A stretch of DNA of 64,000 nucleotides from Coriobacteriaceae bacterium. GTDB lineage: Bacteria; Actinomycetota; Coriobacteriia; Coriobacteriales; Coriobacteriaceae. The translations under genes and the position numbers were made by a program. Below are positions 11,678-30,642 of this stretch, piece after piece (positions within the stretch are counted from its first letter, which is position 1; every line of letters begins with the position of its first letter). The notes below the pieces were generated by a model that saw nothing but the letters and a program-made list of their open reading frames with translations, made no database searches and was not told where the DNA came from. The stretch lies in assembly GCA_902363125.1 (NCBI GenBank), contig CABIZD010000004.1:115475-179474 (forward strand). The letters run 5' to 3'.

Positions 11678-13600
11678 ATGGAAGAGGCCTATCGTCAAGC
11701 GCGCAAGCGCGGCGAACAGGGACGCCGTCGCGCCATCAGCCAAAGCGAGCATCCATATCTTACGGACCTCGACAGCTTGGTCGCCCAGCTTCCCTACGGG
11801 CAGCGCGAGAACATCGGCCTGCGGGACATTCCGCTCGAAATGGTCGTCGGCACGGTTACCAAAGGTCGCCAGTCCGCCTTTTCGTGTAACTTTATGCCGC
11901 TGCTCCCCTGGAATACCGAATTCGCCCGCAAATGGTCCAACCTCTACGATATCCAAATCTCCGAGGGCTACCGCGACCCCATCATCGTCACCGAGTTCAT
12001 GCACCGCTTTTACGTCCAAGAGGGCAACAAGCGTGTCAGCGTCCTCAAATTCCTTGACGCTCCGACGGTTTCGGCCAAGGTGACGCGTCTGTACCCCGGT
12101 AAGTGGGATTCCGTCGAGAGCCGCCTGTACGGTGAGTTTTGCGCCTTTTGGTACGTATGCCCCCTGTACGAGATTGAGTTTTCGCGCGAGGGCAGCTACG
12201 AGATGCTTGCCAAAATGCTCGGCCAAGATCTTGTCGAAAAATGGCCTCAAAAGAAGGTCGACTACCTACGTCACACCTTCCTGCTCTTTAAGCGCGCCTA
12301 TCTTCGCGCGGGCGGCGACCACTTGGACATTACGCCTGCCGATGCCATGCTCGTCTACCTCAACGTCTACAACCAGGACCGTCTGCTGGATACGCCGACG
12401 GATATCGTCGTCAACCGTCTGTGCAAGATTTGGCGCGAGCTTGTCATTGCCGGCAAAAGCGACGAGGACAAAGTCGATCTTGTCGAAGCGCCGCAGCCCA
12501 ACGAGAAAGAGGGCGCACCGACAAAAGCTACCTCGGGCGTGCTCAACTTCTTTATGAGCAAGACCGTCTACTCCACTGCCAATCCCATGCGAATCGCCTT
12601 TATCCACGAGTTTCCCTGTGCCACGTCGAGCTGGGACAGCCTACACGACCAGGGCCGCCGGTATCTTGATGAGCACTTTGGCGGCATCGTGCGCACCGAG
12701 GCGTTCGAGGACTGCCACGATTCGGACGTGTTCTACGCCGCCGTCGAGACAGCCGTAAAGCACGGGGCGAACGTCATCTTCTCGACCTCACACCGGCTCA
12801 TGGAATACACGCTCAGGGCGTCAGTCGAGTATCCCCAGGTGCGGTTCCTTAACTGCTCAATCGGCCTTCCCCACCAAAGCGTCCGCTCGTACTTTGGAAA
12901 GATGTACGAGGCCAAGTTCCTACTGGGCGCCCTTGCCGCCAGCATGGCCGACAACCACCGTATTGGCTACCATGCGTCGGTCTTCGCCTCGGGCGCGCTG
13001 AGCGAAATCAACGCCTTCGCTATCGGTGCCTCGCTGCTCGACCCTCGTGCGCAGATTATCCTCACTTGGGGAGATGTTCCCGCCGGCGGTCTTGCCGAAG
13101 CCATGTGTCGCGAGGGCGTGAGCGTCATGACCGGCGCCGATATGTCCAAGTCTCTCGAGGACCCCACCGCCTACGGGCTTCACCGTCTGGTAAACGGCAA
13201 GGAAGCTACCGGTATTGCTATGCCGGTATGGAACTGGGGCCGTTACTACGAACTCATCGTACGCAGCCTACTGCACGGCACATGGGACGAGACCGCCGAT
13301 GACCAGCAGGTGCGCGCCGTCAACTACTGGTACGGTATGAGCTCCGGCGTCATCGATATTCGCTACGCTCCGGGCCTACCCTATCAGACGCGTAAACTTG
13401 TGCAGCTGCTTCGCAACGGCATTGTCGAGGGCTCCATCAACCCATTTGGCGGCGAGCTCCACAGCCAGGACGGCGTGGTTCAGATTGAGGGCTTCCCTCC
13501 CCTGCCGAGTACGCAGCTTGTCGAGATGAACTGGCTGGCTGACAACGTTATAGGCTCGATTCCGCAGCTCGATAACGAGCCGGAGGTCCGTGCCCTATGA
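11678..13600 (+). CDS. ParB-like/BMP-domain fusion protein
   Basis: A 640-aa protein without signal peptide or lipobox. Residues about 90-145 resemble the ParB/sulfiredoxin fold (DPIIVTEFMHRFYVQEGNKR). After a charged linker near 280, residues about 305-600 match the BMP family (PF02608) of nucleoside-binding receptors, with an ordered set of Rossmann strands (MRIAFIHEF, VIFSTSHR, VRFLNCSIGL, RIGYHAS). BMP proteins normally work outside the cell, so a cytoplasmic version points to ligand sensing rather than transport. Its last codons overlap the phosphoesterase start (ATGA), so the two are made together. Start ATG at 11678 follows GGGAGT. Function unknown. Confidence 0.75.
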   Translation: MEEAYRQARKRGEQGRRRAISQSEHPYLTDLDSLVAQLPYGQRENIGLRDIPLEMVVGTVTKGRQSAFSCNFMPLLPWNTEFARKWSNLYDIQISEGYRDPIIVTEFMHRFYVQEGNKRVSVLKFLDAPTVSAKVTRLYPGKWDSVESRLYGEFCAFWYVCPLYEIEFSREGSYEMLAKMLGQDLVEKWPQKKVDYLRHTFLLFKRAYLRAGGDHLDITPADAMLVYLNVYNQDRLLDTPTDIVVNRLCKIWRELVIAGKSDEDKVDLVEAPQPNEKEGAPTKATSGVLNFFMSKTVYSTANPMRIAFIHEFPCATSSWDSLHDQGRRYLDEHFGGIVRTEAFEDCHDSDVFYAAVETAVKHGANVIFSTSHRLMEYTLRASVEYPQVRFLNCSIGLPHQSVRSYFGKMYEAKFLLGALAASMADNHRIGYHASVFASGALSEINAFAIGASLLDPRAQIILTWGDVPAGGLAEAMCREGVSVMTGADMSKSLEDPTAYGLHRLVNGKEATGIAMPVWNWGRYYELIVRSLLHGTWDETADDQQVRAVNYWYGMSSGVIDIRYAPGLPYQTRKLVQLLRNGIVEGSINPFGGELHSQDGVVQIEGFPPLPSTQLVEMNWLADNVIGSIPQLDNEPEVRAL

Positions 13601-14307
13601 ATATCCTAGCCATTGCCGATGTAGAGGAGCGCTGCCTGTGGGAATGTTTTCGCAAGGAGCGCTTTGAGGACGTTGACCTGATTCTATCCGCAGGCGACCT
13701 GGATCCGGACTATCTTGAGTTTTTGGTCACTGTCATCAACAAACCGCTTGTGTACGTTCGTGGCAACCACGACGACCGCTACGCGCGCCATGCACCGGGC
13801 GGGTGCATTTGTGTTGAGGACAGCGTATATGTGTACCGAGGTATTCGCATTGCGGGTCTGGGCGGTTCCATGCGCTACTGCGACGGCGCGAACATGTATA
13901 CCGAGCGCGAGATGGCAAAACGCATGCGCAAGCTATCGCGAAAAATCGCACTGGTAGACGGATGCGATATTCTACTTACCCATGCACCCGTCGCAGGCAT
14001 GGGCGACCTGGACGACCTGCCGCATCGAGGATTCGAGTGCTTTAATGCGGCTCTTGAGTCTTGGGGTCCCGACTATATGATTCACGGGCATGTGCACCAA
14101 AGCTACGGCCCCAACTTTCAACGCGAGCGCCAACACCCATGCGGAACGAAGATTGTCAACGCCTGCGGCTATACCAAGATCGAAATTGACGAGGCGCGCT
14201 ACCCCACGCGCGGTTGGAAGGCCGCTTGGCTCAACTCGCAAACCATGCGCCGCGAGCTCAAACGCCACGAAGCAATCGAGTCTTCAACCGCCAGAACCCC
14301 CTGGTAA
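13597..14307 (+). CDS. Calcineurin-like metallophosphoesterase
   Basis: Predicted cytoplasmic phosphoesterase of 236 aa. The metal-binding motifs GDLDPDY, GNHDD, THAP and GHVH appear in family order. The first motif is atypical: where DxH is expected it reads ADVEE, so one metal-ligand His is missing or replaced. The ATGA overlap with the BMP-fusion gene means translational coupling and a joint role, possibly a nucleotide or nucleoside response pair. A hairpin repeat follows 8 bp after the stop. Substrate unknown. Confidence 0.85.
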   Translation: MNILAIADVEERCLWECFRKERFEDVDLILSAGDLDPDYLEFLVTVINKPLVYVRGNHDDRYARHAPGGCICVEDSVYVYRGIRIAGLGGSMRYCDGANMYTEREMAKRMRKLSRKIALVDGCDILLTHAPVAGMGDLDDLPHRGFECFNAALESWGPDYMIHGHVHQSYGPNFQRERQHPCGTKIVNACGYTKIEIDEARYPTRGWKAAWLNSQTMRRELKRHEAIESSTARTPW

Positions 14308-14314
14308 CTGCCAA

Positions 14315-14375
14315 CAACCACCACGAAGGGGATAGGCACCTTTATGGTGGTTTTGCTGACTCGTCCGACCTGTCC
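14315..14375 (+). repeat. GGGACAGG hairpin repeat, copy 4, with shared tail
   Basis: Arms CAACCACCACGAAGG and CCTTTATGGTGGTTTTG around GGATAGGCA, followed by the 21-bp tail at 14355-14375 that is identical to 16370-16390. This shows the repeat unit is about 61 bp in these two copies. Confidence 0.8.
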
Positions 14376-14421
14376 ATCACGGTGCTTGTGTAATTAACGA
14401 GAACACTCATTGTTTTGTAAG

Positions 14422-14447
14422 GACGGCGCTCACGTGCCGTCTTTTTT
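14422..14447 (+). terminator. Strong terminator upstream of the sigma-factor gene
   Basis: GACGGC pairs with GCCGTC, followed by TTTTTT. It stands about 115 bp after the previous gene and 90 bp before the next, so it may end the phosphoesterase transcript or attenuate a leader of the sigma operon. Confidence 0.75.
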
Positions 14448-14538
14448 GTCAACTTATGCAGTCTCGACCGTGTTGTATGTAGAGGGACCTCGCGAGACGC
14501 CTTCCCTATATCCACCACGACCAATTGGAGGTGACACT

Positions 14539-15099
14539 ATGCCTGCACGCCGTAACCGCAATAGCACGCTCCGATGCGATGCCGATCAGATCGAGCGGGA
14601 AGCAAAGCGCTTGGTCGACACGTATTCCGACCTCATCCTTCGATTGTGCTATTCGGCCCTTGGATCCGCTGACGACGCTCAAGACATCTGCCAGGACACG
14701 CTGATCAAGATTCTCCAACGCACTCAACCGTTCGACTCGCTCGAACACGAACGTGCTTGGGTGATCCGAGTCGCACTGAACGCATGTCGCGATATCGGCC
14801 GTACGCACGCGAATCACCCGGTTGTCGACCTCGATTCGCTCCCCGATTTCTGCGCACCCGTAACACATACCGAGCAAGAATTCGCGCAACGCGACTGCGC
14901 CATTCTTTCCGCTGTCACGGCCCTGCCTCAAGCACAGCGCATCGCCATCTTTTTGCACTACTACGCAGGCATGAGCATCAGGGAAATCGCAGACGCCGTT
15001 CACGCGACGCCAGCTGCAACCGCCCAGCACCTTAGCCGCGGACGTGCGTCACTTCGGCTTTCCTTGAAAGGAGACCACAATGACTACGAATTCGAATGA
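14539..15099 (+). CDS. ECF-type RNA polymerase sigma factor
   Basis: Sigma-70 family factor of 186 aa with only region 2 (about 25-95; YSALGSADDAQDICQDTLIK) and region 4 (about 130-180; ALPQAQRIAIFLHYYAGMS). It redirects RNA polymerase to a small regulon, probably envelope or antimicrobial stress given its partner. ATG at 14539 follows TTGGAGGTGACACT. The gene overlaps the next one by 20 bp, the standard sigma/anti-sigma arrangement. GC and codon use are a little lower than in neighbouring housekeeping genes. Confidence 0.9.
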   Translation: MPARRNRNSTLRCDADQIEREAKRLVDTYSDLILRLCYSALGSADDAQDICQDTLIKILQRTQPFDSLEHERAWVIRVALNACRDIGRTHANHPVVDLDSLPDFCAPVTHTEQEFAQRDCAILSAVTALPQAQRIAIFLHYYAGMSIREIADAVHATPAATAQHLSRGRASLRLSLKGDHNDYEFE

Positions 15100-16210
15100 C
15101 TATCGCCACGCCCTGGAGCACATTTCGTTTACCGATAATGCGAAGCAGCACATGGCAAACTCGATTGCTCAGTCCGTCGCCTCAAGCGATGCGGCGACCG
15201 CTCAAAGCAACTTTAATGGCACGCGACGCAAGCCGCGCATCGCCCGCCATCCCGTAAGAACAGTCGCTCGCATTGCCGCCGTAACGGCAGTCCTCGCTAT
15301 CGTCATTGGAGGCGCTGGCACGGCTATGGCAACAGGCGTCCTGCCGCTTCCTTCTGACATGCTTTCCGACATCTTTGACGGACCTGCTTCTCAAACCGAG
15401 ATCATCGACCGTATTGGCCGGCCCGTCGGTGCTAACTGCTCCAACAACGGAGTCACCGTGACCGCCGACGCCATCATGGGCGACAAGGATATGGTTACCA
15501 TCGCCTATACGCTTACGTTCGACGATCCCGCTGCCCTGAAAAAGCTTTCCGAGCCGGGCGAGAACGGAACTATCGCCGGAAGTGTCGATGGAAACGTATA
15601 CGTTGATGGTGAGCATGGCGGCCAAGGCCAATCATGGCTCATTGACAAGAACCCCAATGACTCCAGCATTCAATACTTTGCACAGTTCAGCGTTGAATCA
15701 CCCGGCCTTATGGGCAGGACCGTCCGCACGCATATCAACTCTCTCGTTGTGCCACGTGCTGGCAAAGAGCTTCCCGAGTATAAGAAAATACTTACGGGCC
15801 CATGGGATCTTAAGTTCCAGCTGAATTACGAAGATACATCCGTTACGATTCCCGCGCCCAAATCGGTCAACTTTAACGGCACCAAGGCGACGATTCAAGA
15901 GGCCACCGTATCCTGCGTTGGCGTTTCAGTCCGCTACAACATAGATCGTTCCATCGAACACGACAACAACAGCGGCAAGATGTCTCAAAACATGGAGGAG
16001 TCTATGGATGCCGTTGGCAACATACCCCTCATCGTGACGTTCAAAGACGGTCATGTTGAGGACGCAACCAGCCACAGCGGCTATTTCGCAAATAAACTGG
16101 ATAACGGCACCACTGATGTCCACAAGACCTGGCCGTTCTCGCAAGTTTGTGACACAGACAAGATTGCAAGCGTACAAATTGGCGATACGGTCATTCCCAT
16201 GAATTCGTAA
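15080..16210 (+). CDS. Membrane anti-sigma factor, DUF4179-like
   Basis: A 376-aa protein with a short cytoplasmic N-terminal part, one membrane segment at about 60-85 (TVARIAAVTAVLAIVIGGAG), and a large extracytoplasmic domain rich in beta strands (NGVTVTADAIMGDKDMVTIA). This is the layout of DUF4179 proteins, which sit next to ECF sigma factors and hold them at the membrane. It lacks the Zn-binding HxxxCxxC of classic ZAS anti-sigmas. The start codon lies inside the sigma gene behind GGAGACC, so expression is coupled. What releases the sigma factor is unknown. Confidence 0.85.
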   Translation: MTTNSNDYRHALEHISFTDNAKQHMANSIAQSVASSDAATAQSNFNGTRRKPRIARHPVRTVARIAAVTAVLAIVIGGAGTAMATGVLPLPSDMLSDIFDGPASQTEIIDRIGRPVGANCSNNGVTVTADAIMGDKDMVTIAYTLTFDDPAALKKLSEPGENGTIAGSVDGNVYVDGEHGGQGQSWLIDKNPNDSSIQYFAQFSVESPGLMGRTVRTHINSLVVPRAGKELPEYKKILTGPWDLKFQLNYEDTSVTIPAPKSVNFNGTKATIQEATVSCVGVSVRYNIDRSIEHDNNSGKMSQNMEESMDAVGNIPLIVTFKDGHVEDATSHSGYFANKLDNGTTDVHKTWPFSQVCDTDKIASVQIGDTVIPMNS

Positions 16211-16327
16211 CGCTACGCGGCTCGTATATGCACCCGGTTCCGCACTTCGCGTCTAAAGATGCGCTGTCATCGAGCAGCGTGAGCGCAAGGCCGCCCGTAT
16301 GGTCGGCTGGGAACACCTCGTTGCGCT

Positions 16328-16390
16328 AAAAACCACCACGAAGGGGACCGGCACCTTTGTGGTGGTTTTGCTGACTCGTCCGACCTGTCC
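16328..16390 (+). repeat. GGGACAGG hairpin repeat, copy 5, with shared tail
   Basis: Arms AAAACCACCACGAAGG and CCTTTGTGGTGGTTTT with loop GGACCGGCA, then the 21-bp tail (16370-16390) shared with 14355-14375. It directly abuts the 40-bp-period array. Confidence 0.8.
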
Positions 16391-16400
16391 CAACGGTTTG

Positions 16401-16535
16401 TCTCAATCTGTAACAGGTAGGGCCCAAATAATCGGTTAGCTGTTACAGATCGAGACAGACCACGGATGCTCAGCCGAAAATCTCAATCTGTAACAGGCAG
16501 GAACAATTTTGCCCCTTAGATGTTACAGATTGAGA
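16401..16535. repeat. Alternating 15-bp repeats at exact 40-bp period, array A
   Basis: TCTCAATCTGTAACA occurs at 16401 and 16481, and its inverse (TGTTACAGATYGAGA) at 16441 and 16521. All four starts are exactly 40 bp apart, and the three 25-bp spacers differ. The geometry is identical to the array at 27055-27189. Read as RNA it gives two hairpins with 15-bp stems and 25-nt loops. It lies between convergent genes. Confidence 0.9.
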
Positions 16536-16561
16536 TATTTGACAGCTTGAATCGGCATCGC

Positions 16562-17205
16562 CTACAGCGCGGCGACGACCTTGTCGCCCATCGTCGTGGT
16601 GCCGAGGATCTTATCTGCCGGGGTGTTGACATCGGCGATGTCACGGGTGCGCCAGCCCTCGTCGAGCACGCGCGCCACGGCGCTCTCGATCCACGCGGCT
16701 TGCTCGCCCATGTCGAGCGCGTAGGTCAGCAGCATCGCCACCGACAAGATTTGAGCCAGCGGATTGGCCACGCCGAGCCCCGCGATGTCAGGAGCGCTGC
16801 CAGCGCTCGGCCCAAACAGCGATACGCCATCATCCAGCGAGGCAGAGGCAAGCATACCGAGCGATCCGGTAATCTGAGCCGCCTCATCGGACAGGATGTC
16901 GCCGAACATGTTCTCCGTCACCACGACGTCAAAGTCTGCCGGTCGACTGATGAGCTGCATGGCGGCGTTGTCGACGAGCAGGTCCTAAAGCTCCACGTCG
17001 GAGTACTCCTCGTCTTGCACGCGATGCACGATCTCGCGCCACATGCGGCTCGTCTCCAGCACGTTGCGCTTATCAACGCTCGTCACCTTGCCGCGACGTT
17101 TGCGCGCCGCCTCAAATGCCTGGCGCGCAATGCGCTCAATCTCGTACTCGCGATACTCCATCACGTCGACCGCACGCTGACCGGCCGCACCCGCAGCGCC
17201 CGCGC
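16562..17205 (-). pseudogene. leuB: 3-isopropylmalate dehydrogenase, C-terminal remnant
   Basis: Only the second half of LeuB survives: [18 protein letters not shown], then [19 protein letters not shown] and, after an in-frame TAG at 16985-16987, [12 protein letters not shown], the substrate/metal motif [15 protein letters not shown], and the C-terminus. The enzyme would oxidise 3-isopropylmalate in leucine synthesis. The stop codon sits where the intact protein would read DVEL-x-DLLVDN. The N-terminal half is missing because a deletion joins this fragment to leuA near 17195-17217. Non-functional. Confidence 0.9.
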
Positions 17206-17768
17206 AGGTCACGGATGCGGACGCCAAAGTCCCACGGCATGTTGTAGCCCATCGTATCGGGGATGTTCACGACCGTGGCACCGGCCTTTACGGCCGCCTC
17301 GATAATGCGCACCAGAAACTCCTGATCGGAGCGGCCGGCATCCTCGGCATAAAACTCAACATCGTCAACGAACTTGCGAGCATGTTTGACGGCATGGATC
17401 GCTCACTCAATTGCCCTTTCCTCAGTCATATGGAGCTTGTCGCGCAGGTGACTGGTGCTCACACCCAGCCCTGTATGGATACGGGGCCTCTGGGCCGTTT
17501 TGAGCGCCTCTGCAGCCACTTCGATATCCCTGTCGACAGCGCGCGTCAGGCCGCATACCGTGCATCGGTCGCCCGCAATCTTGCCAATCTCCTGTACGGA
17601 GCGAAAGTCACCAGGACTCGAGATGGGAAAGCCCGCCTCGATAACGTCCACGTTCATGCGCACCAGCTGGCGGGCGATGAAGAGCTTTTCCTCGGTATTC
17701 ATGCTGGCGCCCGGCGACTGCTCACCGTCGCACAGGGTGGCGTCAAAGATTGTGATTTTGCGGCTTAT
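17206..17768 (-). pseudogene. leuA: 2-isopropylmalate synthase, N-terminal remnant
   Basis: N-terminal part of LeuA, the first committed enzyme of leucine synthesis. Five lesions are visible. The expected start codon behind CAGGAGGAACAT reads ATA instead of ATG. The catalytic motif that should be TTLRDGEQ reads ATLCDGEQ, losing the essential Arg. A TGA at 17403-17405 interrupts the frame between MTEERAIE and [17 protein letters not shown]. The sequence stops after [12 protein letters not shown]. It is then fused to the middle of leuB, so the LeuA C-terminus and any leuC/leuD between were deleted. The upstream leader and attenuator remain. Confidence 0.93.
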
Positions 17769-17840
17769 ATGTTCCTCCTGATTGACCGTTTTATGACAGA
17801 TGGCTTTCAGGAGAGAGAGAAGGCCTAGAGATAGAAAAAT

Positions 17841-17892
17841 ACCCGTGTCGCTCATCACGCCTGAAAGCGGCAGACGATAGCGCACCCGGGTA
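17841..17892 (-). terminator. Leucine-operon attenuator terminator
   Basis: On the minus strand ACCCGGGTGCGCTATC (17892-17877) pairs, with small bulges, with GATGAGCGACACGGGT (17856-17841) and is followed by ATTTTTCTATC. It lies between the leader peptide and the leuA remnant, the usual place for an attenuator. Confidence 0.75.
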
Positions 17893-17921
17893 CAACAAAT
17901 CGTTATAGCGAGATTACAACC

Positions 17922-17981
17922 CTAGCGCGCTATCCAATCTAGTAGCGCTAGGCCTAGGAGCTGTTGCGTGTTCTTAAACAT
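17922..17981 (-). CDS. Leucine leader peptide, 19 aa
   Basis: A short reading frame, MFKNTQQLLGLALLDWIAR, preceded by GAAGGGAG. It has five Leu in eight codons: CTC CTA, then CTA, then CTA CTA. CTA is a rare leucine codon in GC-rich actinobacteria, so ribosome stalling at low Leu-tRNA would be strong. Together with the hairpin at 17841-17892 this is a classic transcription attenuator for leuA, in the same style as other actinobacterial leu leaders. It now controls only a pseudogene. Possible promoter: TTGTGT-17-TAGTAC just upstream. Confidence 0.75.
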   Translation of the reverse strand: MFKNTQQLLGLALLDWIAR

Positions 17982-18036
17982 GTTGGGCTCCCTTCGGCCT
18001 CGGGTAGTACTACATCGCGCTAAAGTACAACACAAG

Positions 18037-18078
18037 TAAAACCACCACAAGGGTGCCTGTCCCCTTCGTGGTGGTTTC
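18037..18078 (-). repeat. GGGACAGG hairpin repeat, copy 6 (loop inverted)
   Basis: Arms AAAACCACCACAAGG and CCTTCGTGGTGGTTT, with the loop reading GTGCCTGTCC on the plus strand, the reverse of copies 3-5. The right flank still reads GTTGACTC, close to the GCTGACTC after copies 4 and 5, as if only the loop were flipped. Confidence 0.75.
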
Positions 18079-18091
18079 GTTGACTCAAAAG

Positions 18092-18137
18092 CAAGAGACC
18101 CAGTCCTGCACGAGGCAGAACCGGGTTTCTTGAGCAA
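18092..18137 (-). terminator. rplA operon terminator
   Basis: An 18-bp imperfect stem (CAAGAAACCCGGTTCTGC with its partner) and a CTCGT loop, followed on the minus strand by CTTTTG. Confidence 0.85.
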
Positions 18138-18167
18138 TGCTTGCTTTACTCAGGCGGTAACTATAAG

Positions 18168-18875
18168 TTACTCAGCCAGGAAGTCGCGCTGGACAGCGGG
18201 ATCAACCTTGACGCCAGGGCCCATGGTGGAAGACACGGAGATGGACTTGACGTACTTGCCCTTAGCAGAAGAGGGCTTGACGCGCAGGATCTCGGTGTAC
18301 AGGGCAGCGTAGTTCTCGACGAGCTGCTGCTCAGAGAAGGACTTCTTGCCCAGGGGCACGTGGCAGATGCCGTAACGGTCGGCGCGGTACTCAACGCGGC
18401 CAGCCTTAAGCTCAGAGACCATCTTGGCGACGTCCATGGTCACAGTGCCGAGCTTGGGGTTCGGCATGAGGCCACGGGGACCAAGGATCTTACCGATGCG
18501 GCCAACCTTGGCCATCATGTTCGGCGTAGCGATAGCGGCGTCGAAGTTAATCTCGCCCTTCTGAATCTGGGCGACGAGCTCGTCGGAACCGATGATGTCA
18601 GCGCCGGCAGCCTCGGCCTCGCGGGCCTTCTCGCCCTCGGCGAAGACGGCAACACGAACGGTCTTGCCGGTGCCGTGGGGCAGGGAGATGGAACCACGGA
18701 TGTTCTGGTCAGCCTTACGAGTATCGATGCCCAGACGGAAGTGAGCCTCGACGGTCTCGTCGAACTTTGCAGTGTCGAGCTCCTTGATGAGCTTGGCAGC
18801 CTGAAGGGGGGTGTAGAGCGTGGCGCGGTCGATCTTCTCGGCAGCGGCGTTATAGCTCTTACCATGCTTAGCCAT
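18168..18875 (-). CDS. rplA: 50S ribosomal protein L1
   Basis: Large-subunit protein of the L1 stalk, which moves the E-site tRNA; in many bacteria it also represses its own L11-L1 operon. The 235-aa product has the family signature [17 protein letters not shown]. The start is the ATG at 18875, 8 bp from AGGAGG; an ATG two codons earlier is too close to that site. It is the last gene of rpmG-trnaW-secE-nusG-rplK-rplA and is followed by a strong terminator, so rplJ and rplL are not part of this unit. Confidence 0.98.
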
Positions 18876-18992
18876 GTGCATTACCTCCTGTGGTTAAACG
18901 GGCGTGAGCCCTCCCACATCGTATCGTGTGCCCTATTGCACACATTTAACGGGCGCCCCGGTCGGAGCACCCGCCGTTACCATAAGAAATCG

Positions 18993-19421
18993 CTACTCAG
19001 CGATGGTGACGCCCATGGAACGGGCGGTACCGGCGATGATCTTCTTGGCGGCGTCAATGTCGTTGGCATTGAGGTCCGGCATCTTGATCTCGGCGATCTT
19101 GGTGAGCTGCTCCTGGGAGAGCTGACCAACCTTGTCAGCCTGGGGCTTAGCGGAACCAGACTTGAGGTTCAGCTCCTTCTTGATAAGGTGAGCCGCCGGC
19201 GGGGTCTTGGTGATGAAGGAGAAGGACTTGTCCTCGTAGACAGAGATCTCAACGGGGATGATGTCACCCTTCTTGTCCTGCGTCTCGGCGTTAAAGGCCT
19301 GGCAGAACTGCATGATGTTCACGCCAGCAGCGCCCAGGGCGGGGCCGACGGGAGGAGCGGGGTTTGCTGCACCAGCAGGAATCTGGAGCTTAATGACGTT
19401 GGCAACCTTCTTCTCAGCCAT
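18993..19421 (-). CDS. rplK: 50S ribosomal protein L11
   Basis: Protein of the GTPase-associated centre of the large subunit, 142 aa, with [20 protein letters not shown] at the N-terminus (the thiopeptide-binding and methylated region) and the C-terminal rRNA-binding domain ending [15 protein letters not shown] at 19421 follows AAAGGA; one further ATG lies two codons upstream. The 117-bp gap to rplA is mostly leader-like and could hold the L1 autoregulation site, which I cannot confirm by eye. Confidence 0.98.
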
Positions 19422-19541
19422 GGTCATTCCTTTCGAATCACGAGTGTGAAGTACTTGCTATATCGTAAGCACGCACGTGTTAGAAGCACTCCTGAGATGA
19501 GCAGTCACAGAAGAAGCACGCTCGCGCGAACGGACGAAAAC

Positions 19542-20078
19542 TTAAGCGATGACAGCGACCTGGTTAAAGTCGAGCTCGACCGGCGTCTCGCGGCCAAAGA
19601 TCATCAGCGTGACCTTGAGCTTGCCAGCCTCGGTGTTAACCTCGGAGACCTTGCCATCAAAGTCGGTAAGCGGGCCATCGGTGACGCGGACGGACGTACC
19701 GACCTCAATATCAACCGAGGTGCGCTTGGGCGAATCGCCCTTACCGGGACGACGAGTCATCTTGTTGTACTCGTCGCGGGAAAGCGGAGCGGGCTTGCCG
19801 TTGCCGCCTAGGAAACCGGTGACGCCAGGCGTGTTACGAACACACGTCCAAGCATCGTCATCCATCTCCATGCGGACCAGGACATAACCCGGGAAGATCT
19901 TGGAATCCTTGGTCTCACGCTTGCCACCCTCTTTAATCTCGGTGACGCGCTCCATAGGAATCTCGATATCAAAGATACGGTCCTGCATGCCCATAGTCTC
20001 GATGCGATGCTCGAGATCGGACTTAACGCGGTTCTCGTATCCAGAGTAAGTGTGAACGACGTACCAACGCTTAGACAT
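19542..20078 (-). CDS. nusG: Transcription termination/antitermination factor NusG
   Basis: RNA polymerase-binding elongation factor that couples transcription to translation and to Rho. The 178-aa protein has the NGN domain ([15 protein letters not shown] and [11 protein letters not shown]) and a C-terminal KOW domain ([17 protein letters not shown]). Its ribosome site GAGGGGC lies in the last codons of secE, and only 3 bp separate the genes, so they are co-translated. No insertion as in thermophile NusG is seen. Confidence 0.98.
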
Positions 20079-20081
20079 GGT

Positions 20082-20420
20082 TTAGCCCCTCAATCCAGAG
20101 AACAGAGCAAGAGCCTCGCCAAAGCCAGCATCGAGCAGAGCGATGACGACGCCGACGACGATCAGAGAAGCGCAAACAACAACCGAGTAGTTCACGAGCT
20201 CCTTCTTATCGGGCCACGTGACACGCTTCATCTCGGACTTGACCGAAGCGAAATACTTCTTGGTGCGGGCGAAGAAACCAGGCTTCTCGTTCTTCTTGGA
20301 CTTCGCAGCCTTCTCGTTCTTCTTGGCAACGGCCTTCTTGGCCTCAACCTTGGAGTTGGCGGCAGCTTTGTTGGCAGGTGCCGGCTGCTGAGCCTTCTTC
20401 TTGTTCTTCTTGTTGGCCAT
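20082..20420 (-). CDS. secE: Preprotein translocase subunit SecE
   Basis: Small membrane subunit of the Sec translocon, 112 aa. The first 50 residues are a Lys/Ala-rich extension, followed by the conserved amphipathic helix (YFASVKSEMKRVTWPDKKEL) and one membrane helix (VVVCASLIVVGVVIALLDA). The extended, low-complexity N-terminus is common in high-GC Gram-positives. Start behind GGAGGTAACCCAA. It stands between tRNA-Trp and nusG. Confidence 0.97.
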   Translation of the reverse strand: MANKKNKKKAQQPAPANKAAANSKVEAKKAVAKKNEKAAKSKKNEKPGFFARTKKYFASVKSEMKRVTWPDKKELVNYSVVVCASLIVVGVVIALLDAGFGEALALFSGLRG

Positions 20421-20458
20421 TTGGGTTACCTCCGCGCAATGCGCTTATACATGAGTAA

Positions 20459-20488
20459 ACCGTAAGCCCCCAAGTGGGAGCTTACGGA
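20459..20488 (-). terminator. Hairpin between tRNA-Trp and secE
   Basis: CCGTAAGCTCCC pairs with GGGGGCTTACGG, followed on the minus strand by TTTACT. It probably trims or partly terminates the rpmG-tRNA transcript ahead of secE. Confidence 0.65.
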
Positions 20489-20496
20489 ATAATGAC

Positions 20497-20572
20497 TGGC
20501 ACGCCAGGAAGGACTCGAACCCTCAACACTCGGTTTTGGAGACCGATGCTCTACCAATTGAACTACTGGCGT
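20497..20572 (-). tRNA. trnW: tRNA-Trp (anticodon CCA)
   Basis: Cloverleaf with acceptor ACGCCAG/CTGGCGT, anticodon loop CTCCAAA and an encoded 3' CCA. It lies inside the rpmG-secE operon, an arrangement known in several Gram-positives. Confidence 0.97.
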
Positions 20573-20585
20573 ATGTGACTAGAGA

Positions 20586-20735
20586 CTAGCGAGTCTCTTT
20601 GTGCAGCGTGTGGTGACGGCACCAGGGGCAATACTTCTTGATCTCCATACGATCAGGCATGGTCGACTTGTTCTTGGTGGTCGTATAGTTGCGGCGCTTG
20701 CACTCAGTGCACGCAAGAGTAACTAGAGTACGCAT
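20586..20735 (-). CDS. rpmG: 50S ribosomal protein L33
   Basis: A 49-aa protein, [20 protein letters not shown] at its start and then [16 protein letters not shown]. The two CxxC pairs (CTEC and CPWC) mark the zinc-binding C+ form of L33. It is first in the operon rpmG-tRNA-Trp-secE-nusG-rplK-rplA. A clear promoter lies 46 bp upstream. The RBS before its ATG at 20735 is weak (AAAGGTTCAGGATAC). Confidence 0.95.
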
Positions 20736-20780
20736 GTATCCTGAACCTTTCATTTCCGCCCCGTACGGGCACGAGTTGTT

Positions 20781-20810
20781 ACTTTATCAGCTCCACGTAA
20801 GTGCTGTCAA
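20781..20810 (-). promoter_or_regulatory. rpmG operon promoter
   Basis: TTGACA (20810-20805) and TAAAGT (20786-20781) with an 18-bp spacer. The upstream block GAGGTTTTCATTGACAGC matches the tRNA-Tyr operon promoter in 17 of 18 positions. Confidence 0.85.
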
Positions 20811-20949
20811 TGAAAACCTCGAGTCAATTGGTTCTCGGTGGATCCATTCATATTTGGAACACATCAATGAAGCCATCGAGAGCTAATCGACGGTGCATCC
20901 AGGACCATTATCGATCCTCTCGACACCAGCAACGGCTCAATATCCATTG

Positions 20950-20988
20950 CAGAAAAGAACCCGGCACCCATATAAGTGCCGGGTTCTC
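20950..20988 (-). terminator. tuf terminator
   Basis: Perfect 12-bp stem AGAACCCGGCAC with 20956-20967, 8-nt loop, then TTTTCT on the minus strand. Confidence 0.93.
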
Positions 20989-21014
20989 TAAGTCAGCTAT
21001 ATCAAAGAGCTAAT

Positions 21015-22205
21015 TTACTCAATGATCGTGGAGACGATGCCAGAACCGACGGTGTGGCCACCCTCGCGGATAGCGAAGCGCAGGCCCTCCTCCATGGCGA
21101 TCGGGTGGATGAGGTCGCCCTCGATGGTGATGTGGTCACCAGGCATAGCCATCTCGGTGCCCTCGGGGAGCTTGACCGTACCGGTAACGTCGGTGGTACG
21201 GAAGTAGAACTGAGGACGATAACCATCGAAGAATGGGGTGTGACGGCCGCCCTCCTCCTTGGTCAGAACGTAGATCTCGCCGGTGAACTTGGTGTGCGGG
21301 GTAACCGAACCGGGCTTGCAGAGAACCTGGCCGCGCTCGATGTCCTCACGCTTGATGCCGCGGAGCAGCAGACCGACGTTGTCGCCAGCCTCGCAGAAGT
21401 CCATGGACTTACGGAACATCTCGATACCGGTAACGACGGTGTTCTGGGTATCCTTGATGCCGACGATCTCGACGGGCTCGTTGAGCTTGAGCTCACCGCG
21501 CTCGACACGGCCAGTAGCAACGGTACCACGGCCGGAGATGGTCATAACGTCCTCAACGGCCATCAGGAACGGGAGGTCGTTGTTACGAGCAGGCGTCGGG
21601 ATGTACTCGTCGACGGCCTTCATGAGCTCGCGAATGGCGTCCATCCACTTGGCGTCGCCCTCGAGAGCGCCCAGAGCGGAGCCACGGATGACGGGGATGT
21701 CGTCGCCGGGGAAATCGTACTCGGAGAGGAGCTCACGGGTCTCCATCTCGACGAGGTCGATGAGCTCGTCATCGTCGACCATGTCGCACTTGTTCAGGAA
21801 GACGACGATGTAGGGAACGCCGACCTGACGGGCGAGCAGGATGTGCTCGCGGGTCTGAGCCATGGGGCCGTCGGTAGCAGCGATGACCAGGATAGCGCCG
21901 TCCATCTGAGCAGCGCCGGAGATCATGTTCTTGACGTAGTCAGCGTGGCCCGGGCAGTCAACGTGAGCGTAGTGACGGGCAGCGGTCTCGTACTCAACGT
22001 GGGAGACGGAAATCGTAATGCCGCGCTCGCGCTCCTCGGGAGCCTTGTCGATGTTCTCGAACGCAGTGAAGTCAGCCTTGCAGCCCTCGGTCTCGGAGAG
22101 AACCTTGGTGATGGCAGCGGTCAGCGTGGTCTTGCCGTGGTCGACGTGACCAATGGTGCCGATGTTAACATGCGGCTTAGTGCGCTCAAACTTCTCTTTG
22201 GCCAT
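21015..22205 (-). CDS. tuf: Elongation factor Tu
   Basis: GTPase that brings aminoacyl-tRNA to the ribosome, 396 aa. G motifs [14 protein letters not shown] and NKCD are all present, followed by the two beta-barrel domains; it ends [25 protein letters not shown] precedes the ATG. It is not linked to rpsL-rpsG-fusA here but follows a tRNA cluster (Tyr-Thr-Met), like the tufB arrangement in enterobacteria; probably the only copy or the second tuf of the genome, which the window cannot decide. Confidence 0.98.
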
Positions 22206-22301
22206 AAAGCCCTCCTCTTAACAGGTCGTCCCCGGACGGGACTTTGCCTTTATACCATAGTGGCCTCTCAACATACTATTGAGAAGCCACCGTGTTACCT
22301 A

Positions 22302-22378
22302 TGGTAGCGGTGACTGGATTCGAACCAGTGACGCCACGGGTATGAACCGTGTGCTCTAACCAACTGAGCTACACCGCC
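22302..22378 (-). tRNA. trnM: tRNA-Met (anticodon CAT), elongator type
   Basis: Acceptor GGCGGTG/CACCGCT with a G-T first pair, anticodon loop TTCATAC, encoded CCA. The acceptor and anticodon stem lack the CCC/GGG marks of initiator tRNA. Confidence 0.95.
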
Positions 22379-22381
22379 GGA

Positions 22382-22457
22382 TGGAGCCTGCAACCAGACT
22401 TGAACTGGTGACCTCTTCGTTACCAACGAAGTGCTCTACCGACTGAGCTATACAGGC
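22382..22457 (-). tRNA. trnT: tRNA-Thr (anticodon GGT)
   Basis: Acceptor GCCTGTA/TGCAGGC, anticodon loop TTGGTAA, encoded CCA. Three bp from tRNA-Met. Confidence 0.96.
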
Positions 22458-22467
22458 ACTTGACGGG

Positions 22468-22549
22468 TGGGAGCTATAGGATTCGAACCTATGTAGGCAG
22501 AGCCAACGGGTTTACAGCCCGTCCCCATTAACCACTCGGGCAAACTCCC
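22468..22549 (-). tRNA. trnY: tRNA-Tyr (anticodon GTA)
   Basis: Class II tRNA with a long variable arm, anticodon loop CTGTAAA, acceptor GGGAGTT/AGCTCCC. The 3' CCA is not encoded (the genome reads ACCC), unlike the two tRNAs after it. Confidence 0.95.
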
Positions 22550-22611
22550 AATCGTTCAAGTATCCGCAGGTCCTTTGGTCTTTTGGACCGCCGCCCCCGC
22601 GAACGAAGAAG

Positions 22612-22641
22612 ATAATACGATGCCACCTTGGGGGCTGTCAA
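22612..22641 (-). promoter_or_regulatory. Promoter of tRNA-Tyr-Thr-Met-tuf
   Basis: TTGACA (22641-22636) and TATTAT (22617-22612) with an 18-bp spacer, a near-consensus sigma-A promoter about 60 bp before tRNA-Tyr. It shares GAGGTTTTCRTTGACAGC with the rpmG promoter. Confidence 0.88.
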
Positions 22642-22852
22642 CGAAAACCTCTAGATACACGGTGCCGGGCGTATCTATATAGCCGTGACCTGCGGTTTTG
22701 TTGAGTTTGGATATGAAGGACGGTGGTTTTGGATACTGAGGTGACGTTTCCCGAGGTAACACTTTGGTGTAGTGGAGTACACCTTCAGGATCGAACTTCG
22801 ATAACGGCTTATTTGCACCTATATATAGGTCGAGATCGGGCTTCCACGCCAC

Positions 22853-22924
22853 GATCGAGCGTGGATTATCTCCCACTTTTAGCGCGGCTCTAAGGCCAAA
22901 GTGGCAGATTATCCACGTTCATTC
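22853..22924. repeat. TTATCCACG palindrome
   Basis: Inverted repeat with 27-bp arms (22853-22879 and 22898-22924), imperfect, built around GTGGATTATC/GATTATCCAC. The right arm ATTATCCACGTTCATTCTCC recurs at 26959-26978 (18 of 20 bases). The 403-bp gap 22550-22952 otherwise holds only the tRNA operon promoter. Confidence 0.7.
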
Positions 22925-22952
22925 TCCAGGCGAGAGAACTGTAAAGCCGCAA

Positions 22953-23786
22953 CTACTCGGGCCAGGCCAAAGTAGACCCATAGAGCAGCTCCCCCTTGGT
23001 GCAGGGGTAGCGACTCAAGTAACACGACGATAGCAAGTCGAAAAAATAAGTCATGGCGTATTTCGAATAAACGCCGAGTCGGTCAATTCCGTTTCCCGCA
23101 TTACCAAGACGATATACACGGTCAAAAGACCTCGATTTGTCATCGTTGCTAAACGCAGTAATTAGAATCTTCCTGCCCGAACGGCAATCAAGATACTCAC
23201 GCGCCTGTGACGCAAATAGCCCGGAGACCGATACGAGAATTATCAATGACTGCGAAGCGTCTCCCATGTTTTTCAATTCCGCGACGTTAGCCCCAGCAAC
23301 TATGCGAACTATCTTGCCCGCATAAAACATTTCCTGCTGAAATCGTACGAGATTGGCGCTCACATTATTGGTGCACCAGATTTCAACGTTTTTATGGCCA
23401 TCAATTTCGTCGACAAGATGCTTAATAGCGATATCGGACACGCCGCTTTCAACCTCAGCGAACATCTCGATCATGCGAACGTCGAGCTCTGCCCTGTACT
23501 CCTCGTAGCCAAATTCCTCCTCTCGATGGCTTAAGTCGCTTGGAAAGACTGACTGAGTAAATGATTCTTTCAAATCGCTAAGAGACTGGTAGCCCAATCG
23601 ATTGCAGAAACGACGAACAGCGGAACGGGTCACGAATGCATCGCGGGTTATTGCGGCAACATTGATTTCGCTCGAACGCCTAATGTGAGCGATGAGATAT
23701 CGAGCGATGGCGGCATCGTTTGACCCAAACTCGCTGTTGATGATGGAGCTAATGCGATTGAGCACATCGAAGTCATTGATATTCAC
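22953..23786 (-). CDS. MurR/RpiR-family transcriptional regulator
   Basis: Regulator of 277 aa with an N-terminal RpiR helix-turn-helix (about 1-75; FVTRSAVRRFCNRLGYQSL) and a C-terminal SIS domain (about 115-245) that binds phosphosugars. I start at the GTG at 23786 behind GAGGGATCAC; an ATG at 23825 would add 13 residues but lies inside an operator-like palindrome without ribosome site. It is divergent from the phospho-beta-glucosidase and PTS genes, which it presumably controls in response to the incoming sugar phosphate. Lower GC than the housekeeping genes around it. Confidence 0.9.
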   Translation of the reverse strand: MNINDFDVLNRISSIINSEFGSNDAAIARYLIAHIRRSSEINVAAITRDAFVTRSAVRRFCNRLGYQSLSDLKESFTQSVFPSDLSHREEEFGYEEYRAELDVRMIEMFAEVESGVSDIAIKHLVDEIDGHKNVEIWCTNNVSANLVRFQQEMFYAGKIVRIVAGANVAELKNMGDASQSLIILVSVSGLFASQAREYLDCRSGRKILITAFSNDDKSRSFDRVYRLGNAGNGIDRLGVYSKYAMTYFFDLLSSCYLSRYPCTKGELLYGSTLAWPE

Positions 23787-23817
23787 GTGATCCCTCTTTC
23801 CGCTCTCCTCGAAATCA

Positions 23818-23836
23818 TGATTCATTTATTGAATCA
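23818..23836. promoter_or_regulatory. Operator candidate O1, RpiR/PTS divergent region
   Basis: Perfect inverted repeat TGATTCA-5nt-TGAATCA just upstream of the rpiR start. Confidence 0.65.
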
Positions 23837-23858
23837 AACAGCTTTGGTCGTTCTCCTA

Positions 23859-23870
23859 TGATTCAAATCA
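23859..23870. promoter_or_regulatory. Operator candidate O2, RpiR/PTS divergent region
   Basis: Perfect palindrome TGATTCAAATCA sharing TGATTCA with O1, 41 bp from it (about four helical turns), between the divergent genes. Confidence 0.6.
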
Positions 23871-23937
23871 GTTGACGTCATCTTAATCATAATTCCGCCA
23901 CACGTATCCACCGTGTTGAATGATGGAAAGGGGATTC

Positions 23938-25356
23938 ATGGGCAACGTGAACAACATGCCGTTTCTCTGGGGTTCCGCCACGGCGTCTTATCAGTGCGAG
24001 GGTGCCTGGAACGAAGACGGCAAAGGCCTTGGTGAGTGGGATTTCTTTAGCCACACAAGCAATAAGAACATCAACCATGTTGACGGTGATGTATCTTGCG
24101 ACTTCTACCATCGCTATGAAGAAGATATCCGCATGATGAAAGAAGGCGGACAAAACACCTATCGCTTCTCTCTTTCATGGAGTCGAATCATCCCCACCGG
24201 TATCGGCAAAGTGAATGAAGAGGGTATCGATTTTTATAATCGGGTCATTGATTGCTGCCTCGAAAATGGCATAGAGCCCAACGTTACGCTGTTCCATTAC
24301 GATCTGCCATTCACGCTTGCTTGCAAAGGCGGATGGCTGAACAACGACATGGCAGAGTGGTTCTGCAAATACGCCAAGATTTGCTTTGAGCGCTTTGGAG
24401 ACCGCGTCAAAATCTGGGCTACCGTTAACGAGCCGCATTTCTACAGCTACTGCGTAAACATGTTGGGCAACTATCCCCCCAATCGATCGCTCGATGTTCA
24501 GTCGTACATGCAGTTTCAGTACAACCTGATGCGCGCAAGCGCACTCGCAGTCCGAGCATATCGTCAAATGGGCTACGACGGCATCATCGGCGCCGTCCAC
24601 GATGGCGGCGTTGTCGAACTCGACCCGGCAACCGAGCACCCCGATGACGTATTTCGATACGCAGACTTTTTCGCCAATCGCATAATTCTGGCACCAGCGC
24701 TTCAGGGTCAACTGCCGCCAGAAATGGACGAAATCCTTGAAAAACTTGGCGTCTCGCTCTATCGATCCCCAAATGACGTAGAAGAATTCAGCGACGGTAA
24801 AGTCGATTTTATTGGACTCAACGTGTATTGCCGAGAGTATGTAACCGACTGGCACGGTGGAGAGCTTGCCGTTTCGGCGAACAATAAGGGCGGTTCGAGC
24901 AAAAAGGTCGAAGGAAAATGCATTGCGCCCTTGTTTGAAAGCGCCCGCGACAGCAATGTTCCCCGCAATAAATGGGGCCGCGAAATACTCCCAAGTTGCA
25001 TGTATTCAACCATCATGGATGTCCACGAGCGCTATGACGCGCCCCGCATCTTTATTACGGAAAACGGACATGGCGCCTATGAGCAACCAGACGCAGACGG
25101 AATGATCCACGATGATGACCGCATCGAGCTTCTGGGCCAGTTCATCGAGCACATGATGAGGGCTAAGCGCGACGGCGCGCGCGTTGAGGGCTACTACCTC
25201 TGGTCGACGATGGATCTGTATAGCTGGATCAACGGCTACGAAAAACGATACGGACTTGTCCATATCGACTTCGAGAACAATCTGGAGCGCACCCCCAAAA
25301 AGAGCTGGTATTGGTACCGAGACCTTATCTCGAAGTATCAGGAGCAGGAAGGTTAG
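23938..25356 (+). CDS. 6-phospho-beta-glucosidase, GH1
   Basis: Cytoplasmic glycosidase of 472 aa that cleaves phosphorylated beta-glucosides delivered by the PTS. GH1 hallmarks: N-terminal FLWGSATASYQCEGAW, acid/base Glu165 in TVNEPHF and nucleophile Glu375 in ITENGHG. ATG at 23938 follows AAAGGGGATTC. The EIIBC gene starts 9 bp after its stop, so the two form an operon. GC is lower than in the housekeeping genes, which fits acquired sugar-use genes. The exact sugar (cellobiose, salicin, arbutin) cannot be read from the sequence. Confidence 0.94.
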   Translation: MGNVNNMPFLWGSATASYQCEGAWNEDGKGLGEWDFFSHTSNKNINHVDGDVSCDFYHRYEEDIRMMKEGGQNTYRFSLSWSRIIPTGIGKVNEEGIDFYNRVIDCCLENGIEPNVTLFHYDLPFTLACKGGWLNNDMAEWFCKYAKICFERFGDRVKIWATVNEPHFYSYCVNMLGNYPPNRSLDVQSYMQFQYNLMRASALAVRAYRQMGYDGIIGAVHDGGVVELDPATEHPDDVFRYADFFANRIILAPALQGQLPPEMDEILEKLGVSLYRSPNDVEEFSDGKVDFIGLNVYCREYVTDWHGGELAVSANNKGGSSKKVEGKCIAPLFESARDSNVPRNKWGREILPSCMYSTIMDVHERYDAPRIFITENGHGAYEQPDADGMIHDDDRIELLGQFIEHMMRAKRDGARVEGYYLWSTMDLYSWINGYEKRYGLVHIDFENNLERTPKKSWYWYRDLISKYQEQEG

Positions 25357-25365
25357 GAGAAAGAG

Positions 25366-26766: not shown

Positions 26767-26869
26767 ATGCCCGCTGCTTGCATTGGGGACATCCTCGGCA
26801 GACCATTAGCAAGAACCCAAGAAGTCCCTTAGGAGCTCGATTAATCCATTCGGATTCCTCAGGCACAAA

Positions 26870-26906
26870 CGACCCCGATTCCACAATGAAATCGGGGTCG
26901 TCGTTT
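26870..26906 (+). terminator. Terminator of the bgl-PTS operon
   Basis: Perfect 11-bp stem CGACCCCGATT with AATCGGGGTCG, 9-nt loop, then TCGTTTCT. Confidence 0.85.
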
Positions 26907-26958
26907 CTAAAGCCTTCGATAGACAATCGGTGTTTACCTTAGCTCCCTATCCAAGTTA

Positions 26959-27028
26959 ATTATCCACGCTCGTTCTCCGGTCGGAAGATTTTCTTCGCTC
27001 GCGTGTCCAGAAATCCACGCTCGAGCAG
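26959..27028. repeat. TTATCCACGCTC repeat, partial copies
   Basis: ATTATCCACGCTCGTTCTCC (26959-26978) matches the right arm of the palindrome at 22853-22924, and AAATCCACGCTCGAGC near 27011 is a second partial copy. This lies in the 533-bp gap after the PTS operon, which has no gene. Confidence 0.55.
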
Positions 27029-27054
27029 AACATCCAGGTCCGCACCCGCCCTTG

Positions 27055-27189
27055 TCTCGATCTGTAACAGCAAGAGGCCTATTCCGCTTCTACATGTTAC
27101 AGATCAAGATATTCCTAAAACACCCTAAGTTTCATCTCAATCTGTAACAGTTAGATGCCAAATATCGGTCTTGGTGTTACAGATTTAGA
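27055..27189. repeat. Alternating 15-bp repeats at exact 40-bp period, array B
   Basis: TCTCGATCTGTAACA at 27055 and TCTCAATCTGTAACA at 27135 alternate with inverted copies at 27095 and 27175 (TGTTACAGATCAAGA and TGTTACAGATTTAGA). All steps are exactly 40 bp and the total is 135 bp, as in array A. Spacers differ from array A. It again lies between convergent transcription units. Confidence 0.9.
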
Positions 27190-27253
27190 CAAACTGGAGG
27201 ACGAGACAAACCAAAAACGGGATGGGCGCTAACCTGATGGCGCGCCACCTAAA

Positions 27254-27289
27254 TAGAAACGGGCTCTGTCCCATATAGAGACAGAGCCC
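27254..27289 (-). terminator. tRNA-Thr(TGT) terminator
   Basis: GGGCTCTGT (27261-27269) pairs with ACAGAGCCC (27281-27289); minus-strand tail GTTTCTATTT. Confidence 0.85.
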
Positions 27290-27299
27290 GAAACTCTCA

Positions 27300-27374
27300 T
27301 GGAGCCAGTGACAGGAATCGAACCTGCAACCCACTGATTACAAATCAGTTGCGCTACCGTTGCGCCACACTGGC
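27300..27374 (-). tRNA. trnT: tRNA-Thr (anticodon TGT)
   Basis: Acceptor GCCAGTG/CACTGGC, anticodon loop TTTGTAA, encoded CCA. A stand-alone gene with its own terminator; the second threonine tRNA in the window. Confidence 0.96.
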
Positions 27375-27527
27375 ACACTTGGCGCTTTCGCGCGAAGCCT
27401 GTTAAGAATAATGGAATTGCGGACGGGGCGCAACAGGCCGCACGGCGTTATATAAATATGCAAAATCCAGCAACAGCGCGTACCAGGCCCGTTCATTTCT
27501 GTCAGTGCGCCCTCAATCTTAAAACCA

Positions 27528-27587
27528 TTCGCCAGAACGAATAGTTTTAATTACAATTGGCTATATAAAACTATTCGTTCTGGCGAA
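27528..27587. promoter_or_regulatory. Perfect 21-bp inverted repeat around the HTH-HipA promoter
   Basis: Arms at 27528-27548 and 27567-27587 are exact complements of 21 bp, separated by 18 AT-rich bp that contain a TATATAAA -10-like sequence. The right arm ends 10 bp before the ATG at 27598. It can be an operator pair flanking the promoter, or a very stable 5' hairpin in the mRNA. Confidence 0.85.
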
Positions 27588-27597
27588 GGGTTTCGCG

Positions 27598-28938: not shown

Positions 28939-28965
28939 CGAGACAGCATCGCCCCGCCAACTCCC

Positions 28966-29643: not shown

Positions 29644-29646
29644 GCG

Positions 29647-30636: not shown

Positions 30637-30642
30637 GTACGG

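Follow-up and report, generated by a model that had tools for sequence, protein, structure and literature searches.

Among described bacterial repeats, the closest to the arrays reported here are BIMEs, which bind gyrase, IHF or Pol I, and REPINs. Excerpts of PMC2817692 and PMC8266576 present BIMEs as regularly spaced short units of alternating orientation, arranged in tandem in intergenic DNA, and the excerpts of PMC8266576 describe these units as imperfect palindromes with a preceding GTAG. According to PMC3116915, REPINs pair two inverted copies of a conserved 16-mer around a spacer that is less conserved; they are dispersed through extragenic space, and compensatory changes are common in them. 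RAYT genes are stated to be always flanked by two REPs (excerpts of PMC2817692), and the E. coli RAYT protein carries an HuH motif and Y115 (excerpts of PMC8266576).

In the window, by which we mean the whole 64,000-nucleotide stretch of a Coriobacteriaceae bacterium contig analyzed here, a sequence-only reading had described four alternating 15-bp repeats at exact 40-bp steps. All four starts of this array (array A, 16401-16535) were confirmed, at 16401(+), 16441(-), 16481(+) and 16521(-), with 0, 1, 0 and 0 mismatches to TCTCAATCTGTAACA, respectively. The repeats had also been called conserved, which holds exactly for three of the four copies, while one copy differs by a single base (A to G at position 5, positions 4 and 5 being the free positions of the motif). 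The same 135-bp geometry does recur, as was claimed, in array B (27055-27189), where the 15-mers start at 27055, 27095, 27135 and 27175 and show 1, 2, 0 and 1 mismatches to TCTCAATCTGTAACA. Ten matches to the 15-mer with up to three mismatches were found in the window, eight of them in the two arrays, against a mean of 0.82 and a maximum of 3 in 100 shuffles of the window, and a window scan for four alternating exact 10-mers at 20- to 70-bp steps returned solely arrays A and B.

Each array consists of two inverted 15-mer pairs with 25-bp spacers. In array A, unit 1 occupies 16401..16455 (arms 16401-16415 on the plus strand and 16441-16455 on the minus strand) and unit 2 occupies 16481..16535 (arms 16481-16495, plus, and 16521-16535, minus); the 25-bp spacer between them (16456..16480) belongs to a class that drifts in length within the family, being mostly 25 or 26 bp. 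In array B, unit 1 (27055..27109) and unit 2 (27135..27189) are separated by a 25-bp spacer (27110..27134) and are identical in sequence to G001:C1:246928-246982 and G001:C1:247008-247062, G001 being the nearest genome to the window among those compared. Array A, which has orthologous two-unit arrays in G019 (L138) and G005 (L139), lies between a DUF4179 protein gene and a broken leucine gene, with a terminator-like hairpin (16329..16369, plus strand) between the upstream gene and the array. Array B lies between a PTS protein gene and a tRNA gene (27303-27374, minus strand); a terminator-like hairpin with a T-run stands between the PTS gene and the array (26869..26908, plus strand), and another, 3' of the tRNA gene, faces the array (27253..27290, minus strand). 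Two side observations concern these surroundings. The leucine-biosynthesis gene remnant at 16562-17660 (minus strand) contains internal stops and frame changes and by eye resembles isopropylmalate synthase. The hairpin beside array A resembles an abundant dispersed terminator-like repeat of 50-67 bp, CCACCACAAAGG...CCTTTGTGGTGG, seen at window 16329-16369 and at about 4260-4326 of locus L178; it is found at many loci in each of 17 genomes, and among the matches listed many copies are 90-100% identical to the query.

The possibility that the 15-mer is randomly spaced in other genomes was pursued across G001, where 78 of 83 exact single sites lie inside listed pairs with the 25-bp spacer. Lone sites are thus rare (5 of 83): one has a partner with three mismatches, one lost its partner to an insertion, one adjoins an inserted end, and the last two are separated from an array by 39 and 41 bp. 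With up to two mismatches allowed, G001 holds 46 inverted pairs, the reversed-pattern control giving 0. A scan of 58 relatives found any pair in 19 genomes; among 35 same-genus genomes, 16 hold 25-64 pairs, three hold exactly one and 16 hold none, and pairs were present in 0 of 23 genomes of other genera. At least 120 matching stretches were returned by a scan of GTDB contigs, and among the 80 matches listed 74 are from Collinsella (many of them C. aerofaciens), the other six having other spacings. Three carriers (G059, G060 and G062) were called from array-like DNA matches. In a dnaA tree, the 18 carriers included (of 19) group as a single clade with branch support of 100/100; the tree is one that covers 37 of 39 genomes, leaving out G024 and G027, and in which G002, G014, G030 and G035 are probably represented by the wrong longest stop-free frame. 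This clade would correspond to the C. aerofaciens group, C. aerofaciens being a common human gut bacterium. There are about 20 arrays per chromosome. With dnaA located, their positions show a gap within the presumed terminus half, which is not significant by a hand estimate for merged loci.

Outside the clade, one pair each was observed in three non-carrier genomes (loci L285, L287 and L288); the lone pairs of G028 and G030 have a common spacer, and that of G014 has a spacer present in G001 and G015, which suggests that these pairs are relics or products of transfer. No similar arrays built on other words were found in 996,624 bases of non-carriers under a strict criterion of four exact 10-mers, which detected 13 places in array-selected G001 loci and both window arrays. 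Of 21 viral stretches with matches, only L314 (GC 64%) resembles a true array. Six AT-richer viral contigs (L317, L319, L323, L327, L331 and L333; GC 30-52%) hold several ATCTGTAACA cores in both orientations, 5-6 per stretch examined, which are perhaps regulatory sites.

The arrays proved as regular as the sequence-only reading had proposed. Among steps of 38-41 bp at nonredundant loci, the inner step (plus to minus) is 40 bp in 347 of 352 cases, and the outer step (minus to plus) is 40 bp in 133, 41 bp in 95, 39 bp in 6 and 38 bp in 1; identical arrays and nested loci were removed from these counts, a few non-Collinsella strays are included, and 19 second sites that overlap a first one at an offset of 8 bp, which arise from spacers beginning GATNNAGA, are omitted together with their 32-bp follow-up steps. 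An array holds one to eight pairs, spaced 80 or 81 bp. Sequence conservation extends past the 15-mer on both sides: when 318 distinct inner spacers are read inward from either end, they have T at position 3 (82%), A/G at position 4, G at position 5 (81%) and A/T at positions 12-13 (96-98%), and the bases outward of the array are C/T, A/G, A/T and A/T. These conserved spacer-edge and outward bases define a half-site of about 24 bp, composed of WWYR (mostly WWTG), TCTNNATCTGTAACA and NNTAG, and a dyad of 55-63 bp in total, in which two half-sites face each other across a 25-bp spacer with an A/T-rich center.

To see which of these properties are maintained, orthologous arrays were compared; by their flanks, the 182 distinct arrays were sorted into 23 groups, a few loci being merged in some of these. 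In 450 comparisons (unequal lengths allowed, flank identity 70-97%, aligned conserved arm positions), arms differed at 2.08% of positions (n=26192) and spacers at 14.46% (n=25314); since the comparisons share ancestry and the flank groups sometimes merge paralogous loci, these counts are not independent. In the 185 pairs of equal length (both flanks alike, identical or more than 25% different pairs dropped), 13 of 15 arm positions differ in 0-2.9%, and positions 4 and 5 differ in 7.4 and 21.8%. Inner spacer positions differ in 11-18%, except position 3 (3.5%) and the central two (6 and 9%), spacers between units in 6-20%, the first four outer flank bases in 2-10%, and bases further out in 6-31%. 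In 239 pairs, inner spacers had the same net length in 642 of 644 cases, between-unit spacers in 378 of 408 and flank controls in 1841 of 1905, so the distance between pairs is kept no better than flanking DNA. Because the inner length is held and the length between pairs drifts, the inverted pair is the unit. The earlier claim of selection on repeat sequence, orientation and spacing is therefore borne out, but the length constraint is confined to the 25-bp inner spacer, so that the 40-bp step as such is not the unit. Across the 450 comparisons, 1037 units were kept and 175 deleted; unit length was unchanged in 879, 68 had an unaligned end, and of the other 90 changes 83 were near multiples of 80 bp, five were of 1-2 bp and two were other. 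Heavily changed arms, with at least 8 differences (gaps counted), occur in 58 of the 1037 kept units, and if decayed units escape detection or are quickly deleted, the constraint would be inflated.

The arrays are intergenic. With genes predicted by a simple in-house script, 0 of 23 arrays (21 of G001 and two of the window) lie inside a predicted gene, and none of the 23 ortholog groups has a member scored inside one; one of the 23 arrays overlaps a gene start by 16 bp, and overlaps with gene ends reach up to 97 bp in the ortholog groups. A terminator-like hairpin precedes the array at 15 of 23 facing gene ends, against a mean of 0.4 and a maximum of 3 for letter-shuffled DNA. Arrays may be enriched in convergent gaps: by majority, the 21 scored ortholog groups of the 23 lie in 8 convergent, 6 tandem and 7 divergent gaps, and 50 other gaps of at least 150 bp comprise 8 convergent, 29 tandem and 13 divergent. 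The flanking genes encode, among others, a pseudouridine synthase, a DeoR regulator, PTS components, DXP synthase, glycogen phosphorylase, pantothenate kinase, ClpB, a MurT/CobQ-like ligase, a GDSL lipase and transposases, and the arrays were rejected as sites of a regulon since these neighbors lack functional coherence. In one G001 locus (L168, 5005-8252), genes for FHA-domain, protein-kinase and DUF6273 proteins stand between two arrays; the matching place in G015 has one two-unit array and none of the three genes.

Of the three proposals made from the letters (a protein-binding array, a two-hairpin small RNA and a palindrome propagated by a RAYT-type enzyme), the first fits best. Building on the observed motif and geometry, the restriction to one clade, the conservation in place of arms and inner spacing, the one-sided changes and avoidance of spacer self-complementarity described below, and the intergenic placement, we somewhat favor the interpretation that the arrays are double-stranded DNA sites for a putative sequence-specific protein of one Collinsella clade. 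If the conservation reflects binding, as we infer, the protein would recognize half-sites of about 24 bp that face each other across a rigid 25-bp spacer, the 55- to 63-bp dyad would probably hold a dimer or tetramer, and one to eight such dyads would follow in succession at 80 or 81 bp. The further suggestion that the sites lie on the same DNA face is not borne out: at the DNA helical pitch of 10.5 bp per turn, 40 bp amounts to about 3.8 turns. As about 20 arrays stand between genes, often beyond the terminators of their neighbors, an architectural or chromosome-organizing role would be likelier than gene-by-gene regulation. A more specific version, which we put forward only tentatively, is a clade-specific chromosome-organizing system of the C. 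aerofaciens group, in which a protein bridges or wraps inverted half-site pairs at the roughly 20 arrays of each chromosome. In its boldest form, the organizing protein would be the carrier-clade RAYT discussed next, a transposase domesticated as an architectural DNA-binding protein, as could be surmised from purifying selection that persists although 14 of 17 sequences have lost the presumed catalytic tyrosine.

The strongest competitor, although we consider it unlikely, is that the arrays are REPIN-like nonautonomous mobile repeats, whose inverted doublets a RAYT-type HUH transposase once multiplied and most of which have since become fixed. It would account for intergenic inverted doublets of a conserved short word that are gained and lost mostly in steps of about 80 bp, and a candidate enzyme exists: 34 of 39 same-genus genomes encode PF01797 proteins, and a single clade of these RAYTs, sharing 71-100% identity with the query, is present in 18 of 19 carriers, the three called from array-like DNA matches among them, and in 0 of 20 non-carriers. 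The one exception, G007, also lacks the flanks of the gene in its assembly. The carriers, however, are themselves a single clade, so the co-occurrence is confounded by common descent. Moreover, 18 fetched RAYT loci, 8 of which hold the carrier-clade RAYT, contain no array site with up to two mismatches within 1.9-6.8 kb on each side. At least 5 of the 8 loci instead have another dispersed hairpin, of 42 bp, just downstream of the carrier-clade RAYT; it has copies elsewhere and is possibly the REP of this RAYT, and it was observed at 5306-5347 of L198 and about 6719-6760 of L196, with the stem GGGACAAA/TTTGTCCC and a CTTAAG tag. Among 17 aligned carrier-clade sequences (from L212-L229, G027 not recovered), with catalytic residues assigned by motif, 8 retain HxH and 3 retain the presumed catalytic Tyr. 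The gene nevertheless remains under purifying selection despite these losses in several lineages: the median pairwise dN/dS, which also counts in favor of the REPIN-like reading, is 0.267 (range 0.089-0.575; 17 sequences, dS >0.05), values between the altered lineages listed are 0.25-0.40, and one close pair (dS 0.037) gives 0.72. A search of solved structures with the RAYT returned nothing meaningful (best E 0.071). Finally, compensatory hairpin changes were not found, and turnover by replication fails to explain arms that are kept in place at orthologous positions. A RAYT-propagated palindrome could be the origin, but the REP/REPIN marks tested here fail, and the case for the RAYT as a partner of the arrays, however attractive its co-occurrence, is weakened by shared descent, gene loci free of sites and a 42-bp repeat of its own.

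Less probable still is that the arrays serve as recombination or attachment sites, at which mobile DNA and gene blocks cross over or insert. Several observations point this way: in G001, one arm is interrupted, with a 4-bp duplication, by an element that encodes a transposase with rve and Mu-type C-terminal domains (IS21-like in our reading), and the end of this element occurs a second time at the edge of an arm. Another arm is split by an element of 4.3 kb that has a subthreshold phage-integrase match (26.5 bits, cutoff 27.1). In addition, several gene blocks found in only one of G001 and G015, some with transposases and some being paralogous sugar-uptake operons, have ends at or near arrays. 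These can be explained otherwise: (i) the integrase element stands beside apparently the same array in G001, G019 and G010, which suggests a single inherited insertion, and its G015 relative has no site in its 4-kb locus, so the integrase was rejected as a partner of the arrays; (ii) repeat homology by itself can account for block exchange; and (iii) insertion sequences are known to target REP elements (PMC1525189, excerpts), which are nevertheless not recombination systems. At L178, 9 of 18 carriers (G001 and 17 others) have the array and the other 9 lack it; this array is therefore dispensable, which counts against the protein-site reading. MITEs have terminal inverted repeats and a target duplication at clean empty sites; the L178 change includes neighboring terminator sequence, and a clean duplication was not seen there.

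That the pairs act as RNA hairpins, whether as a small RNA, an mRNA-stabilizing element or a bidirectional terminator, is very improbable. All four window pairs do fold stably (-20.6 to -35.3 kcal/mol, z -4.6 to -8.7), as is expected of any inverted pair, and transitions, after which a G-U pair can still form on one strand, make up most of the arm changes. On the other hand, across 343 distinct units, 143 changes fell on a single arm and only 4 altered the two arms in the same way, and positions 4-5 of paired arms vary independently (135 same versus 122.8 expected, sd 8.4). Mirrored spacer halves, in 63 thinned units, match less often than re-paired ones (240 versus 299, sd 12.3, z -4.8; 0 of 2000 shuffles as low), and this anti-complementarity was also seen with another thinning of units. 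One-sided arm changes and avoidance of spacer self-complementarity together argue against a conserved RNA hairpin, and the small-RNA proposal is disfavored on both grounds. Rfam matches within 12000-32000 of the window are tRNAs only. As to termination, a terminator-like hairpin already stands ahead of the array at the 15 of 23 facing gene ends mentioned above, and of the 364 array ends scored no more than 72 have at least four T in the next 7 bases; lacking the stem-then-T-run mark, the array as an intrinsic terminator was also disfavored. Least plausible of all are neutral relics of an old repeat expansion, which would fit arrays that decay or vanish (a G015 remnant in L245; the L178 locus) but are already contradicted by the seven-fold difference between arms and spacers and by the inner length constraint, unless detection bias explains all of that constraint.

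To return to DNA sites for a protein, arms that were kept while the inner spacers drifted by about 15% imply a conserved DNA-binding activity. If the sites organize the chromosome, they offer a handle for pull-down and mapping; if the arrays descend from REPINs, they would represent a mobile repeat brought under selection in place. As the number of units changes in steps of about 80 bp, arrays could also serve as strain markers. Among the papers listed on repeats of Collinsella and Coriobacteriia and on REPIN/RAYT, none showed a description of arrays of this kind, so that the family is apparently undescribed so far, and we found no known counterpart of its site architecture.

The family is real, restricted to one clade and BIME-like in layout, but fails the REP/REPIN marks tested. 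CRISPRs are direct repeats in one orientation accompanied by cas genes, whereas the array repeats are 15 bp long and alternate in orientation; as no cas family was found among 40 proteins scanned, mostly array neighbors, the arrays are, as first noted, unlike CRISPR. With BIMEs they share regular spacing, alternating orientation and a tandem intergenic layout, but the 15-mer is not palindromic and has no GTAG tag, and the spacer sequences are not conserved. Compared with REPs, each of which is a palindrome with GTAG or a similar tag in front, the 15-mer likewise lacks self-complementarity, and its edge consensus is NNTAG inside and WWYR outside. Like REPINs, the arrays are inverted doublets of a conserved word of about the size of a 16-mer in extragenic space; unlike them, they show neither compensatory changes nor copies flanking a RAYT gene, single sites are rare (5 of 83 in G001), and copies are conserved in place. 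The parS, matS, SlmA and Noc sites occur as tens of short sequence-specific sites per chromosome, and the arrays likewise provide tens of short sites per chromosome; as these systems are generally described, however, their sites are single short palindromes, whereas those of the arrays are phased inverted pairs 40 bp apart.
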